In this document: piece by piece, positions 20,623 to 42,416 of the stretch | Layout of the letters: the number at the start of each line of letters is the position of its first letter | Position numbering within the stretch: position 1 is the first letter of the stretch | Source of the DNA: Puniceicoccaceae bacterium | GTDB lineage: Bacteria; Verrucomicrobiota; Verrucomicrobiia; Opitutales; Coraliomargaritaceae | NCBI GenBank assembly: GCA_902587165.1 | Contig: CACIKF010000001.1 | Span: 248,001 to 312,000, forward strand | DNA: 64,000 nt | Reading direction: 5' to 3' | The notes under the pieces: generated by a model | Databases searched by the model: none | Seen by the model: only the letters and a program-made list of their open reading frames with translations | What the model was told of the DNA's origin: nothing | Program-made: the position numbers and the translations under genes

Positions 20623-20864
20623 TTTGGCTACAAGTGCGAATTGTTTGTGTTTTTAAAAATACTTTTTCTCTTTATAAACAGTCCACATTATTAATTAACC
20701 TTGTTTTAAACATAGAAAATATTTCGTAAATAACTTGTCACTAAATATTTAATAAGTTTTTCTACCTAATCATAACTATTACTGTTACTGAGAAATTTAT
20801 ATATTATAAAAGAACTCTTATATAAGCATTGCTAGCAAGTTCAAAAAAAGCAAAAATTCACAAC
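20623..20864. other. AT-rich intergenic region upstream of dnaN
   Basis: About 76% A+T by hand count over 242 bases, well above the flanking genes. It contains TTATAAACA near 20670, one change from a DnaA box (TTATNCACA), and no second convincing box. It probably holds the dnaN promoter; a clear -35/-10 pair was not found. An origin is possible but not shown. Confidence 0.4.
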
Positions 20865-21992
20865 ATGAAGTTCAAGATCAACCAAGATCATTTTAGCAAC
20901 GGTCTCCAGCAAGTCCTCAACGTCGTGGCGTCTCGTTCAACCATGCCTATTCTCAGCAACGTGCTAATCGAAGCCGAGGAGGAACACATATCATTAACGA
21001 CCACTAATCTCGATCTCGGCATCCGTTGCCGAATCAAGGCTGACGTTTCAGATACAGGCAGCATCACCTTACCTGTCCGCAAACTGGCCACCATCGTTAA
21101 GGAATTACCAGTTAACGAAGTTTTCCTTGAAACCAACAAAACCAATCAAGCTAAGATCACTTCCGGCGGTTCACTCTTTAAGATAATGGGTATCGGCTCC
21201 GAGGAATTCCCACCCTTACCTACTTTCGAAAACCGTAAAGTTTTCGAACTCGCACAGGACGAAATTGTTAACATGCTCAAGAGCGTGTCCTATGCGCAAT
21301 CGACCGATGAGAACCGCTACATTCTCAACGGGGTTTATTTTAACTTTGCCGACGAAAAGCTAACACTTGTTGCCACTGATGGACGACGACTTGGACTGAC
21401 CGGATTGGAGCTTGAAGTGAGTGAAGAAAACGCCGGAAGTCTCATACTTCCCGCTAAAACCGTAGCTGAGTTAGAGCGACTCATGGGCAAAGGTGAGAAG
21501 GTTAATATCGCATTTAACGATCGCCAAGCAGCTTTTGAAATAGGGCTAGATGAAGCAGGTGACTCTGGCCTGGTTGATCACCTTTACCTTGTTTCTAAGA
21601 TCGTCGAGGGCAACTATCCAAATTATCGTCAGGTTATACCGAAAGAGACCGAGCACCGTGTTAAAATCGAACGCGAACTTATGCTTGAGTGTGTGCATCG
21701 CGCAGCGCTAGTGACATCCGATAAAAGCAATTCTGTTAAAATTAAAATCAGTAAAAACTTACTAGAAATCTCTGGTCAATCCACCGAATATGGAGAGTCC
21801 CACGAATCGATGGCAATTGCTTATGATGGACCCGAAGTGCAAGTCGCCTTCAACCCACAGTTTCTCATGGAACCGCTCAAGGCGCTAACCAAAGACGAAG
21901 TTTTCTTCGAATTTAAAGATGAACTCAGTCCGGGTTTGTTCAAAACCCTAGATAACTTCATCTGTGTAATTATGCCATTACGGCTTAATTAA
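20865..21992 (+). CDS. dnaN: DNA polymerase III beta subunit, sliding clamp
   Basis: Ring-forming processivity clamp for replicative DNA polymerase. About 375 residues, the normal length. The N-terminus [21 protein letters not shown] and the block [14 protein letters not shown] are classic, and the C-terminus ends in [12 protein letters not shown], matching the conserved MPxR(L) end that forms the peptide-binding groove. The ATG at 20865 is chosen over a TTG at 20829, which would add a leader absent from the family. No dnaA, recF or gyrB is adjacent, unlike the classic origin order. Confidence 0.94.
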
Positions 21993-22122
21993 GCTGGGAA
22001 CTTGTCTTTGGCCTTACCTAGAGGCAGGCGAACAAATACGCTACTGTGATCTTTTGCTCTACTAGAGTGGTTTAGTCATTTTCCTTCCCGCATACACCCA
22101 CGCACAACGCTTTCACGTAACA

Positions 22123-23013
22123 ATGCTGAATGAACCCACAGGAAGCTATCAGTGGCTACTTTTCATCTTTGCCGTCGTCACAGTTTCACTTTCTATCTTA
22201 GGCGGACGCTTTAGTGTTCCCTCTTTCCTATTGTTGGGTCGTTGGTTTCGATGGTTTCTTTTTGGGGCGATTTTTGCTTATGCCCTTAAAACCTTTGAGT
22301 TTTCCCTACGTCCAGAATGGGTGCACTTTTTGACAGGTTTCGCCTTATGGTTTGTCATAGAAACAGGCTATAATTGGATCGCGATTAAAGCACTCAGCCG
22401 AAGCGAGCTACCGCTCTTTCCGGAATTCTACGAGAACAAAGATGGTGACGAATGGCCGGCCGATAAACGATTTATCGAACTTAAAGATTGGTTGCGAAGA
22501 GAGAGCTACCAGCAACTTAAAGCACTTAAAGCCGAGTTGTTTGAAGGCACCAGTCTTCGTGCTTCAATTTACGAAAGTCAGGACCAGTTAACCCGCATTC
22601 AGATTCTTTTTCTACCAAAACGTAAAGGTGGTGCCACAGCTTGTTTTACGATTAGTACGCATACAAAAGAAGGCGGCCGTATTATTACCGATAACCTTAT
22701 TTTACCATATGGTGGCTACTACCCTGAAAACTGGGAGATGTGCCGTAAACCACTAATAGGTTCACTAGTAAGGCTCTCTTCGCTTCATAATAAGCGACTT
22801 TTGAAACTTAAAATAGAGCCAGTCAGAGTTGACGACGACGCCCTTGAAGAACTCAATGATTATCAACGCATTCTAGAGCGCCTAAATACAGAAATTGGTT
22901 TCCTTGTTCCCCGCCCTCGCCAAGAAGAGGAGGGCAAAATATCCCAAGAAGGTCGCTACCGCCTTTGGAAAGAAATGTGGTTTCTGGCTTATTTCGGAAG
23001 GTCTTTCGAATAG
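22123..23013 (+). CDS. conserved-looking membrane protein of unknown function
   Basis: Protein of 296 residues that I do not recognise. The N-terminal 95 residues carry about three hydrophobic segments (WLLFIFAVVTVSLSILG, FRWFLFGAIFAYAL, WVHFLTGFALWFVIE), followed by a soluble part of about 200 residues rich in charged residues, including IYESQDQLTRIQILFLP and a strand-rich middle (ACFTISTHTKEGGRIITDN). No catalytic motif stands out. Base composition is like its neighbours, so it looks native rather than acquired. It lies between dnaN and the convergent gnd gene. Confidence 0.7.
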   Translation: MLNEPTGSYQWLLFIFAVVTVSLSILGGRFSVPSFLLLGRWFRWFLFGAIFAYALKTFEFSLRPEWVHFLTGFALWFVIETGYNWIAIKALSRSELPLFPEFYENKDGDEWPADKRFIELKDWLRRESYQQLKALKAELFEGTSLRASIYESQDQLTRIQILFLPKRKGGATACFTISTHTKEGGRIITDNLILPYGGYYPENWEMCRKPLIGSLVRLSSLHNKRLLKLKIEPVRVDDDALEELNDYQRILERLNTEIGFLVPRPRQEEEGKISQEGRYRLWKEMWFLAYFGRSFE

Positions 23014-23020
23014 CTCGATG

Positions 23021-23072
23021 TTTTTAAAAAAAAGCCCCGTTGTGTCATATCGTGATAGTTTGAAGTCGGGGC
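23021..23072 (-). terminator. rho-independent terminator after gnd
   Basis: Read on the minus strand, GCCCCG (from 23072) pairs with CGGGGC (to 23034), enclosing a loop that holds a small TATC-AC-GATA inner hairpin, followed by a run of eight T (23033-23026). It is about 37 bases after the gnd stop. Confidence 0.75.
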
Positions 23073-23109
23073 ACTTGAATCTCTACAGAAAGTTTTTAGC
23101 GGCTTGTAA

Positions 23110-24615
23110 CTACATCTCTAACTGAGGGCGACTAGGTTTTGGCCAGTCAATGTGGTAGAATTTGCCACGTTCTTCGTCGGTGCGCTCGTAGGTGTGGGCA
23201 CCAAAGTAGTCGCGTTGAGCTTGTAAAAGATTTTGCGGGAGGCGAGCGGTGCGATATCCGTCGTAATAAGAGAGCGCTGAGCTAAATGTTGGGACAGCCA
23301 CACCGTGCTCCGCTGCGAGCGCGATAACTTTACGCCAGCCTTCTTGGGCAGCGTGAATGGCGCCGGAGAAGTAGGGGTCGAGTAGCAAATTAGCCAGGGT
23401 GGCATCTCGCTCGTAGGCCTCGGTAATTTTTTGTAAGAAGGCCGCGCGAATAATGCAACCACCACGAAAAATCTGCGCGATCTCACCAAAGTTGAGTTTC
23501 CACCTATACTCTTCTTGCGCATAAGCCATAAGCTGGAAGCCCTGTGCATAGGAGCAGATCTTGGAGGCGTAGAGTGCTTCGCGAATCGCTTCAACCATCG
23601 CGGCTTTGTCGCCAGTGAAGGCCGGGACTTCCGGACCTTTAAGAATTTTTTCAGCAGCAACGCGCTCGTCCTTTACCGCAGAGAGGCACCTAGCAAAGAC
23701 GGCTTCGGCGACAGTTGGAGCAGGAGTGCCCATATCAAGGGCGTTCACTGATGTCCATTTACCTGTGCCTTTTTGCCCTGCGGTATCGAGTACGACATCA
23801 ACGAATGGTTTGCCAGTGACGGGATCGGCTTGTTTCAGTATATCGGCGGTAATTTCAATAAGGAAGGAGTCGAGCTCGCCCTGATTCCACTCGCTGAAGA
23901 TTTCGCCCATTTCTGCAGGAGTCAAACCGAGGACATTTTGCATAAGGTCGTAGGCTTCACAAATCATCTGCATGTCGCCATATTCGATACCATTGTGCAC
24001 CATTTTTACATAGTGACCAGCACCATTAGGGCCGATATATGCGGTGCAACTGAAACCGCCTTCGACTGGTTTGCCCGCTTCGGCACCTTCGAGTGGCTTG
24101 CCGGTTTCAGGATCAACCTTGGCCGCGATGGCTTTCCAGATTGGCTCCAAGTGTGACCATGCTTCAGGGTCGCCGCCAGGCATTAAGGATGGACCGAAAC
24201 GTGCGCCCTCTTCACCGCCCGAAACTCCGGAACCGATGAAACGGAGACCTTTAGCAGTAAGATCTTTCTCACGGCGGATGGTATCATCCCACTTAGCGTT
24301 GCCGCCATCAATGATGATGTCACCTTCTTCCATTAGAGGCACGAGGCCTTCAATTACCTTGTCGGTCGCCCAGCCAGCCTGCACAAGGATAATTATCTTT
24401 CGCGGACGTTTTAATGATGCGACGAAACTTTCTAGCGTTTCACAACCCTCAAGACCACCCGGTGTGTTTGGATTGGACGCAACAAAATCCTCCATCTTGG
24501 AGTTTGTCCGATTATAGACAGAAATTTTAAAGCCGTGGTCGGCTATGTTTAGGGCCAAGTTTTGGCCCATGACCGCAAGGCCAATTAGACCGATTTCAGA
24601 AGTTACTTCAGACAT
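23110..24615 (-). CDS. gnd: 6-phosphogluconate dehydrogenase, decarboxylating (Gnd)
   Basis: Oxidative pentose-phosphate enzyme converting 6-phosphogluconate to ribulose 5-phosphate with NADP. Length of 501 residues fits the long form (E. coli 468). Motifs: the Rossmann [58 protein letters not shown], and catalytic Lys in [15 protein letters not shown]; the C-terminal block includes [14 protein letters not shown]. About 20 extra residues are inserted near residue 170 ([15 protein letters not shown]). It is divergent from a gene of unknown function across a 387-base gap and ends in its own terminator. Confidence 0.94.
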
Positions 24616-39010: not shown

Positions 39011-39123
39011 CGCCTTAGCTTATTCGATTTAGCCTCGCCTCTAGGCAAATTTTGGCGCAAGGAAGCTGGCGTGCTACGTACTCACTTGACGCAATCGCGG
39101 ATTCGGTGAACTTAGCCTGTTCC

Positions 39124-40482
39124 ATGCCTGCCGCTGACACAATTGTAGCTCTCTCATCGCCTTCAGGCGAATCTGCCATTGCGCTGATTCGCTTGTCTGG
39201 GCCCGCTTGTGCGGAACTGGCTCTTGCGATCACAGAGCGCAGTCAGCCGCTCAAAAAGCGCTATGCGCATTTTGCTAAGTATATCGATGTTAATGGAACA
39301 CAAATTGACGAGTGCGTTATTACCTATTATGCTCATGGTCAATCATTTACAGGCGAATCAATGTTAGAAATAGCGCCTCACGGAAATCCCATGATCGTAC
39401 AAAAAATTCTGGCGGATTTAATGGCGCGGGGATGCCGTCCCGCGGAGCCAGGTGAGTTTACGCGCACAGCGTTCTTAAATGGTCGCATGGACTTGAGCCA
39501 GGCTGAGGCAATATCTGATTTGATTCGTGCACGTTCTGACCGTAGCCTTGAAGTGGCACAACGCCAGTTGCATGGGTCAGTTGGTCGTAAGATGAGCGAA
39601 TTGACAGAGCGGCTACTCGGCGTAATGGCACAGCTTGAAGCCTACATAGATTTTCCTGAAGAAGATTTGCCGGGTGAAGACCAAGCAGGTCCTGCTTCCG
39701 AACTTCGCAAACTGATCGAGGAAATAGGCGATTTGATGGAAACGCAGCGTTACTCCGCCCTGCTCCATGAAGGAATTAAAACCTTAATTATTGGCGAACC
39801 TAACGTAGGCAAAAGTAGTTTGATTAATGCACTTACAGGCGCCGAAAGGTCCATTGTTAGTGATATACCAGGCACAACACGAGATTACATTTCGGCCTTT
39901 ATGATGCTGGGGTCATGGCGTATCGAGATTTTGGATACAGCAGGTTTACATGAGGCTGGCGACGCGATTGAAAAGATCGGCATTGATCACACGATTGAGC
40001 AAGCCGAGACAGCGGATTTCTTCTTACTCGTGCTTGATGCCAACCTGCCCTACCCCACTCTGCCGGATTCTTTACTGCAGCGAATGAATCCGGTTAATAC
40101 GATTGTGATCGTGAACAAAACAGATCTGCCCAGCGCTGAATCGTGTGCTGATTTCCTGCCGGATCTACAGCATGTACGCACTTCCCTCCTCGAGCGGAAG
40201 GGCCTCGCGGATCTGCGCGAAATCTGGCAGAAATCTATTGATGCCAGTCTGACGCATGGGCAGAATGATGGCGTGGTGGTTAACGCGCGCCATGCCGCTT
40301 CACTTAGAGAAGCTGTTGATGCACTGAAACTTGCATCATCTAAGTTGAAATTAGGCGATCACTCTGAGCTGATTGTTGCTGACATGCGTGATGCAGTAGA
40401 ACACATTGGGCAAGTTGTTGGACGTGTCGATAATGAGCGTATGCTTGATAGGCTTTTTAAACAATTTTGCATCGGTAAATGA
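39124..40482 (+). CDS. mnmE: tRNA modification GTPase MnmE
   Basis: GTPase that, with MnmG, installs the carboxymethylaminomethyl (or aminomethyl) group on wobble uridine 34. About 452 residues. The N-terminal folate-binding domain has [14 protein letters not shown] and [20 protein letters not shown]; the G domain has [32 protein letters not shown] and NKTD; the C-terminus ends FCIGK, with the catalytic cysteine. The ATG at 39124 is preferred over TTG at 39052. The stop overlaps mnmG's ATG (ATGA), so the two partner subunits are coupled. Confidence 0.95.
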
Positions 40483-42416
40483 GCTCAGGATTAAAGTTTG
40501 GGAAAGCCCAACCCTATGACGTGATTGTCTGTGGCGCCGGTCATGCGGGTTGCGAAGCCGCCCTAGCCTCTGCGCGGCTTGGTGCCGACACGCTTATGCT
40601 GACTGGCAACCTCGATACGATCGCTCAAATGAGCTGTAACCCTGCAATTGGCGGCCAAGCCAAAGGTCACATGGTTCGAGAGATCGACGCACTTGGCGGC
40701 GAGATGGCAATCAACACAGATACCACAGCGATTCAGTTTCGTCTATTAAATGCTTCTAAGGGACCTGCTGTCCAGGCGCCTAGAGCGCAATGCGACAAGA
40801 AGGCTTACCAATATCGCATGAAGCATGTGATTGAGTTGCAGGATAACTTAGACCTTTTTCAGGCCATGGTCCAAGGTCTTATCTATGAAGGCGATAAGGT
40901 AGTTGGCGTTCGGACTAATCTGGAAGTTGAATTTTACGCGAAGACCGTGGTTGTCACGACGGGCACATTTCTTCGTGGCTTAATGCATGTAGGTAAGAAT
41001 ACGAATAAAGGCGGGCGGATGGGCGATTTTTCGGCGGAAGGGCTTTCTGGGTCATTTTTGGAGGCAGGAATTGAGTTAGAGCGCCTGAAGACTGGCACGC
41101 CAGCGCGGATTCTTGGCAGTAGCATTGATTTTAGTCACCTAGAAGAGCAGAAGGGCGACTTAGACCCGACGCTTTTTGCGTTTTACGATACTCGTGGAAT
41201 CGAAAACGTGTTCCACGTAGAACAATCGGAGAAGGGCGCCCTAGACTCGGAACACGAACTGTTCCACGTGGAACAGCCGCATCAACGAAAGCTGGGGTGG
41301 TTGCCTGGCCAAGATCAAGTGTCTTGCTGGATGACCTACACGGGGGCGGACACACGGCAGGTGGTTGAGGACAATCTACATCTTTCTCCAATGTATTCTG
41401 GACAGATCGAAGGCACAGGGCCGCGTTACTGTCCCAGTATTGAAGATAAATTCGTCCGCTTTGCTGATAAAGAGCGCCACATGCTTTTCCTAGAGCCTGA
41501 AGGGCGTAACACGAACGAATGGTATATTAACGGGCTTTCTACGAGTTTACCTTTTGCAGTGCAGTTAGATATGCTGCGAAGCATCGAGGGTTTAGAGGAT
41601 GTCCATATGCTGAGGCCAGCTTATGCAGTGGAGTATGATTTTGCCCCTCCGACGCAGCTTTTTCCTTCATTGGAATCCAAGAAGGTGGAGAACCTTTTCT
41701 TTGCGGGTCAGATCAACGGCACCTCAGGCTACGAAGAAGCGGCGGGGCAGGGGCTGATCGCAGGTGTCAATGCTGTGCAAAAGATTCGTGGGCAGGAAGC
41801 CTTGGTCTTGAAGCGTCACGAAGCTTACCTTGGAGTGCTCATCGATGACTTAGTGACAAAGGGCACGAAGGAACCATATCGTATGTTTTCTAGCCGCGCG
41901 GAACACAGGCTTCTGTTTAATCATCCGAGTGCAGAGTTGCGCTTAGTCGATACGATTGATAGACTACAACTCGTTGATAAACAAAGGTTAGTGAAAATTA
42001 AGGAGAAGTCTTCTAAGGTGCTTAAATGGACGGATCGTCTAGAGCTAGAGCGTAGGGCAGGTGAGAGCTATGCTTTACATTTGCGGCGATCTCATTCCCA
42101 GGAGGACTTCCCCGACGCCATGAAAGGGGAACCTAAGGAAGTTCGCGATGAGGTGCATTACCGTGTAGTTTTTAAAGGTTATTTAGATCGCGAATTGAAG
42201 CAGATCGAGAAACTAAAGCATATTGACAAGATAAAGTTACCAGAGGGCTTTGATTTTACGGAAGTTAAGGGGCTACGCAGCGAGAGCGCTCAGAAGCTGG
42301 TCGAGATTGCTCCAAGCTCTTTGGGGCAGGCGAGTCGTATCAGTGGCGTGAACCCCGCGGACATCAGCATTCTAATGGTGCATCTGGAGGCTCGCTCTGG
42401 CGAAAAGTCGCACTAA
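40479..42416 (+). CDS. mnmG: tRNA uridine-5-carboxymethylaminomethyl modification enzyme MnmG (GidA)
   Basis: FAD-dependent partner of MnmE for wobble-uridine modification. Length of 645 residues. Motifs: [17 protein letters not shown] (FAD), [33 protein letters not shown]-type block, [33 protein letters not shown], and a C-terminal helical region ([18 protein letters not shown]). An extra segment of about 25-30 residues is present near 238-270, just before [10 protein letters not shown]. It encodes two copies of FHVEQ, each the in-frame reading of a parS-like palindrome. It overlaps mnmE by four bases. No rsmG, parA or parB follows. Confidence 0.95.
41209..41224. other. parS-like site 1 (one mismatch) within mnmG
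   Basis: TGTTCCACGTAGAACA differs by one base from the ParB-binding palindrome TGTTCCACGTGGAACA known from Pseudomonas and others. It is read in frame as VFHVEQ (residues 244-249 of MnmG). Confidence 0.7.
41260..41275. other. parS-like site 2 (perfect palindrome) within mnmG
   Basis: TGTTCCACGTGGAACA is a perfect 16-base palindrome and an established parS sequence bound by ParB of chromosomal ParABS systems. It lies 51 bases after site 1 in the same register and is read as LFHVEQ (residues 261-266 of MnmG). A chance exact match in 64 kb is very improbable. Confidence 0.88.

Follow-up and report, generated by a model that had tools for sequence, protein, structure and literature searches.

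Putative parS centromere sites within the mnmG coding sequence of a Puniceicoccaceae bacterium and of much of its phylum

Introduction

In many bacteria gidA (mnmG), rsmG, parA, and parB are clustered beside oriC. Among the described segregation systems, that of Pseudomonas aeruginosa has ten putative parS sites, eight of them in the origin domain, with parAB about 7 kb from oriC (as described in PMC4368675 and PMC3909081); two of these sites, parS2 and parS3, which are reported to be bound by ParB (PMC4368675), are the same 16-mer as the one discussed here. A Hi-C study of 12 gut species, including Akkermansia muciniphila (Verrucomicrobiota), reports that in all 12 most of the parS sites detected are grouped at the crossing of the secondary diagonal, close to the origin given by the skew, and that dnaA is not always found at this origin (PMC10197239). 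Species that have ParB, parS, and SMC but lack ParA are also on record (PMC7333895).

Here we describe two parS palindromes in the genome of a Puniceicoccaceae bacterium (the host), found in the window, by which we mean the whole 64-kb stretch of DNA that was analysed. Both palindromes lie inside mnmG and are read in frame. We argue that they very probably belong to a functional, origin-proximal parS centromere that has long been kept within the mnmG coding sequence, a reading built on comparisons of sequences across the order and the phylum.

Results

Two palindromes in one loop of MnmG

The features of the window that bear on the palindromes are as follows.

39052-40482, + strand: mnmE, immediately upstream of mnmG and sharing 4 bases with its start (NF003661, 391.6 bits; TIGR00450, 345.2 bits)
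40479-42416, + strand: mnmG (gidA), an open reading frame of 645 aa that carries both parS sites (TIGR00136, 758.7 bits; cut-off 524.85)
41187-41297, + strand: coding stretch of the variable loop with both sites, residues 237-273, from alignment (7 residues in chain 2zxh_A)
41209-41224, no strand assigned: parS site 1, TGTTCCACGTAGAACA, one mismatch (GTA for GTG), coding (V)FHVEQ, residues 245-249
41260-41275, no strand assigned: parS site 2, exact palindrome TGTTCCACGTGGAACA, coding (L)FHVEQ, residues 262-266

The first-pass annotation of this DNA had named a perfect palindrome and a one-mismatch copy, in a common register and both reading FHVEQ; our pattern search recovered the two, 51 bp apart, and placed both in phase 1 of the mnmG reading frame. 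The position of site 1 is occupied by an exact parS in close relatives (e.g., loci L035, L036, L038, and L039). With up to three mismatches allowed, the window holds no parS match beyond these two; 0.22 matches are expected from shuffled windows, and two matches were attained in 2 of 100 shuffles. We also searched the whole assembly for more copies, as the annotation had proposed, and at up to two mismatches the mnmG pair are the sole parS places (1.85 Mb in 28 contigs); the assembly is 79% complete, so additional copies may be missing from it.

The annotation had further described the sites as an in-frame insert that MnmG proteins of other bacteria seemed to lack. This holds in comparison with two solved structures: between matched blocks the host protein has 37 residues against 7 in chain 2zxh_A (which we take to be the A. 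aeolicus MnmG), and 42 against 7 in chain 3cp2_A (presumably that of E. coli). It holds less well within the group, since a loop with one site, measured from KTGTP to GPRYC, has about 88-90 residues and barely exceeds the loops of site-free relatives (medians 88 and 85). The host loop has 105 residues, the additional 17 being supplied by the second parS copy, and the word insertion thus suits the second copy better than the first. In an AlphaFold model of the host protein, built from 51 MnmGs (mean pLDDT 89.6, pTM 0.91), 21 of the 645 residues have a pLDDT below 50, and runs of three or more such residues are found solely at 246-257 and 262-267. The loop that carries the parS words is probably permissive and disordered, as far as the model indicates.

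Distribution in the order and the phylum

In the host order, parS with at most one mismatch was found somewhere in 208 of 273 genomes, and a MnmG match at E <= 1e-60 in 245 of the 273. We read mnmG in 160 of those 245 genomes, picked by the place of MnmG and not by the site: 120 of the genes contain an exact parS, 131 contain one with at most one mismatch, and 132 contain one with at most two. Phase 1 is the phase of every in-gene site that has no more than one mismatch (171 of 171). At this threshold, 93 of the 160 genes have one site, 36 have two, two have three, and 29 have none; multiple loop sites are mostly within 27-171 bp of each other, with 51, 54, 27, and 48 bp being the most frequent spacings.

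Exact parS occurs in 131 of 240 genomes of the phylum, 95 of which lie outside the host order. The site was within mnmG in 54 of the 60 out-of-order loci that we read (30/30 outside the host class and 24/30 inside it); in five of the remaining six no mnmG was present in the 3 kb read, and in the sixth the MnmG match begins 81 bp after the site. When named GTDB contigs were scanned for parS at the correct distance from the KTGTP codons, at least 116 loci matched, all holding the site in mnmG, as the search pattern practically forces. Their titles include Verrucomicrobia, Opitutia, Akkermansia, Kiritimatiellae, Pontiella, Lentisphaerae, and the like; the matches listed also include a record titled "PVC group" and another labelled as Omnitrophota, and no further named phylum appears among them. 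Thus the embedded parS, which the annotation had presented as a feature of this host, is indeed present in it but is not peculiar to it, occurring across much of the phylum.

Some loci depart from the simple arrangement. In five loci of family f19 (L115, L131, L132, L135, and L144), and likewise in the named loci L318, L324, L328, L340, L370, and L374, a second parS lies within tens of bases past the mnmG stop codon, so that several lineages combine one loop site with one just 3' of the gene. In locus L189 (G036, a three-contig genome) the loop of mnmG is interrupted by an in-frame stop, beyond which comes an exact parS in the same frame as the rest of the gene, and four f19/g26 genomes (G174, G190, G257, and G261) each have one in-frame TAA within the MnmG match.

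The candidate reader of the sites and its co-occurrence with them

The annotation had also suggested looking for parB, and the host genome encodes one ParB (TIGR00180, E 2.2e-50; G000:C4, a 326-aa ORF in L003), on a different contig from mnmG. Its homologues of solved structure are Spo0J, ParB, and Noc proteins (14 distinct chain sequences), with the best E-value, 3.5e-48, to a Noc. We considered a Noc-type reader because the closest solved relative is this nucleoid occlusion protein; two specificity residues of the host protein speak against it, as the alignment puts R opposite the Q of Noc, and G opposite its R. Both positions are described as absolutely conserved in ParB orthologs and as bearing on the preference for parS or NBS (PMC7383237). 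Judged from its sequence, the host protein is a canonical ParB with parS-type specificity residues.

The statement that parA, parB, and rsmG are not adjacent to the sites was borne out for parB by its separate contig, and for parA in so far as the ParA P-loop motif was not found in the 64-kb window; rsmG near mnmG was judged by eye from the surrounding ORFs. The same motif was absent from the 2.5-3.5 kb around parB in 33 of 33 loci (L003, L214-L243, L472, and L473), and from 120 mnmG loci. In eight of ten complete or near-complete genomes of the order, examined by hand, parB and mnmG are separated by 0.43-0.49 of the chromosome, which puts parB nearly opposite parS (G035, G154, G228, G126, G224, G164, G004, and G020; the exceptions are G212 and G032).

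ParB was detected in 221 of the 273 genomes of the order. Among the 160 genomes whose mnmG was read, it is present in 125 of 131 with an mnmG site as compared to 15 of 29 without (Fisher p 3.5e-8, relatedness ignored). Of the 20 without a ParB match, 14 are site-free and six, all drafts, have a site; the 14 with neither site nor ParB are small genomes of 0.7-1.1 Mb. In the wider phylum, 70 genomes were searched for ParB and mnmG was readable in 60: ParB was found in 30/30 with an exact site, in 9/9 with only a near site (one or two mismatches), and, as strong matches, in just 3 of 21 site-free genomes (G379, G448, and G380). Among the other site-free genomes, G297 has a weak ParB match above the cut-off, while those of G313, G286, and G280 fall below it. 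A tree of MnmG (216 rows) with the loop left out requires at least nine changes of state for the site and 12 for ParB; in nine independent supported pairs the site tracked ParB in 1.8 on average and ran opposite in 0.0, a difference that is not significant by a sign test. The association, strong at the level of clades, is based on few independent events.

Separately, the families f7, f25, f26, and f28, with genomes of 0.7-1.1 Mb, have a ParB match in 0 of 31 genomes and an mnmG site in 0 of the 13 read; in one of them, G088, a single site at up to one mismatch is located elsewhere. G305, from family f32 of the class and of the same size group, has no ParB match and no near site.

There are 15 ParB-bearing genomes of the order without a site in mnmG, and nine of these have sites (at most one mismatch) elsewhere or near mnmG. 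On the mnmG contig, the sites are 0.7-2 kb away in G145 and G165, 20 kb in G002, and 146 kb in G146; in G036 the site lies past the in-frame stop in the loop; and in G109, G160, G098, and G169 the sites are on other contigs. No parS at up to one mismatch was found in the remaining ParB-bearing genomes, G149, G097, G075, G178, G122, and G061.

These data bear on the alternative that the word serves another reader (a Noc-like protein, a regulator, or a modification enzyme), or that it mainly mediates regulation of mnmEG through ParB instead of acting as a centromere. The kinship to Noc lends this some plausibility, as does the reported ability of ParB spreading to silence plasmid genes (PMC7333895). 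However, the word is identical to sites reported as proven ParB targets (PMC4368675), the host protein has the parS-type R and G, and the sites of G145, G165, and G002, outside mnmG and 0.7-20 kb off, would be hard to explain by a local regulator of mnmG. We regard this alternative as improbable, although it is the best of those that we weighed against a ParB-bound centromere.

Position relative to the replication origin

The cumulative GC skew of the window reaches its minimum at position 22,921, where it turns from falling to rising; this point lies beside the following gene, and the parS sites are about 18 kb away.

20829-21992, + strand: dnaN (TIGR00663, 301 bits)

The region at about 20,800-24,600 is probably the origin region, one that is not marked by dnaA: no DnaA match was found in the host genome (79% complete), and the window has one DnaA box match against a shuffle mean of 1.4. 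In G090, a genome of the same family with a 3.99-Mb contig, 5-kb samples show negative skew at 0-1.0 Mb and again from 3.2 Mb, and positive skew, with one exception, from 1.2 to 3.0 Mb. Its mnmG lies at 1.08 Mb, in 18 kb of negative skew; given the nearby flip, the origin should be within about 0.1 Mb of mnmG. We rejected dnaA as an origin marker, since it lies at 3.59 Mb in G090, far from the flip, and since its distance from mnmG in other complete genomes varies from about 0.27 Mb to almost half of the chromosome; GC skew was used in its place. By this measure the parS sites are origin-proximal in the one sampled genome and the one window considered, one of the two being a draft.

Conservation of the DNA word

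We compared the codons of the FHVE words with the rest of the gene. In the order set, 173 FHVE words were found at residues 200-340, and they are written with TTC in 173, CAC in 160, GTG in 171, and GAA in 173 cases; elsewhere in the same genes these codons account for 38, 49, 33, and 52%, respectively. An exact parS encodes 144 of the 173. When 156 of the 160 mnmG genes were aligned (four rows that were too short or interrupted were dropped), the share of the commonest codon in the F, H, V, and E columns is 0.985, 0.977, 0.963, and 0.938, which are ranks 1-4 of 281 conserved degenerate columns; the next-best share among the other 277 is 0.724, and the median is 0.42. The flanking codons are constrained as well: NTG precedes FHVE in 156 of 173 words and CAN follows it in 166 of 173, because the palindrome begins with TG and ends with CA. 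In the 132 aligned best sites, the 16 positions have 1.7-2.0 bits and the flanks (about 20 bases) never exceed 0.89, values that are partly circular because the sites were picked at up to two mismatches.

The word is also found in other frames of the gene. Extra copies reading VPRGT occur in L255, L256, L257, L270, L272, L312, L351, L364, and L392, and copies reading CSTWN in L270, L271, L272, L327, and L403 (some of these loci are probably one organism listed twice); in the related loci L270, L271, and L272 the exact word stands in two or three frames of one mnmG loop.

It might be asked whether FHVE[QH] is instead a functional peptide motif of MnmG in this phylum, of which the DNA palindrome would be a by-product of codon choice. 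F245, H246, V247, and E248 are indeed invariant in 51 MnmGs (partly circular, as the exact DNA word had served to retrieve the 50 relatives), and the ParB-bearing genomes G149 and G097, which have no in-gene site at up to one mismatch, still have FHVER in the loop. Yet the codon invariance goes well beyond that of every other conserved column, the flanking codons are those that the palindrome demands, and the same word in two other frames yields different peptides; besides, runs of three or more residues with pLDDT below 50 are confined to this loop in the model, and the peptide is not apparent in the loops of the ParB-less genomes inspected. On the grounds of codon usage, the use of several frames, and the predicted fold, we rejected selection on the peptide, for which we see very little chance. 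The annotation had raised the contrary outcome, an FHVEQ segment present in MnmG while the palindrome is not conserved; in the order we found the codons to be near-invariant, and in the phylum all three frames in use. Codon ranks and frames together indicate that selection acts on the 16-bp DNA word, as the centromere reading would have it. The least credible alternative, a chance match or a neutral relic of an old parS that has lost its function, has in its favor that one of the two host copies has a central mismatch and that in-gene sites are missing from some ParB-bearing genomes, but just 0.0004 exact matches are expected per genome from base composition (in 1.85 Mb), the word persists where MnmG identity to the host protein falls to about 41%, and the decay at synonymous positions expected of a relic is not seen.

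Discussion

The first-pass annotation put forward that coding and segregation share one stretch of DNA, and at the sequence level this idea finds good support in codon invariance, the three frames, the presence of ParB, and the GC skew. Of the outcomes that the annotation had named as refuting it, none was observed in this genome, which is 79% complete. The evidence points the same way for its claim of a centromere, with ParB binding and a role in segregation being what we infer, as are the single origin and the age of the arrangement.

If the sites work in the way of other bacterial systems, ParB would load with CTP on both palindromes, and the loaded protein would slide out over the mnmEG neighborhood beside the replication origin; its spreading would feed ParA-driven segregation and/or SMC loading. 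The loop peptide would be whatever the parS word spells in its frame, usually [L/M/V]FHVE[Q/H]. MnmG may have kept parS inside its coding sequence because it provides a permissive loop, and selection on the DNA rather than on the protein would explain a loop that is near-invariant but modelled with low confidence.

We think it likely, with less assurance than for the centromere itself, that the main centromere has been in mnmG since the common ancestor of most Verrucomicrobiota, Kiritimatiellae, and Lentisphaerae; that the origin cluster came apart and parB was relocated to a distant place; and that the DNA site has since written a disordered loop, with copies in any frame. An evolutionary guess is that the gidA-rsmG-parAB cluster was dispersed and parS stayed put, tied to mnmG, because it was embedded in a conserved gene.

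If this is true, it would give an unusually clear and very long-lived natural example of a protein gene overwritten with a signal for chromosome mechanics, and it would account for an otherwise puzzling conserved motif of MnmG. The parS in mnmG would also be a landmark for the centromere, and probably for the origin side, in fragmented genomes, which is useful since dnaA need not mark the origin in this phylum. Synonymous recoding of the word would provide a clean test.

We found no report of parS in mnmG/gidA in the open-access literature searched, although the parS survey of Livny et al. (2007) may list some. The gut-species study includes one member of the Verrucomicrobiota; the portions of PMC10197239 considered here do not mention the gene that contains the sites or any overlap with coding sequence, nor do they state a count for Akkermansia. 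In Bacillus subtilis, parS-359 lies within parB (spo0J) and is likewise a parS inside a conserved gene (as described in PMC4442127), but that gene is not mnmG. P. aeruginosa shares with the host the identical 16-mer and its origin-proximal position, and some of its sites are intragenic, e.g., in recF (according to PMC4368675 and PMC3909081). In contrast to its many sites, there are here one or two (rarely three) in-frame sites in a single mnmG loop, the place of the site is kept across much of the phylum, and parB is on a separate contig. Thus, intragenic parS is already known; what appears to be new is a predicted centromere in a loop of MnmG, on the scale of a phylum and flexible in reading frame.
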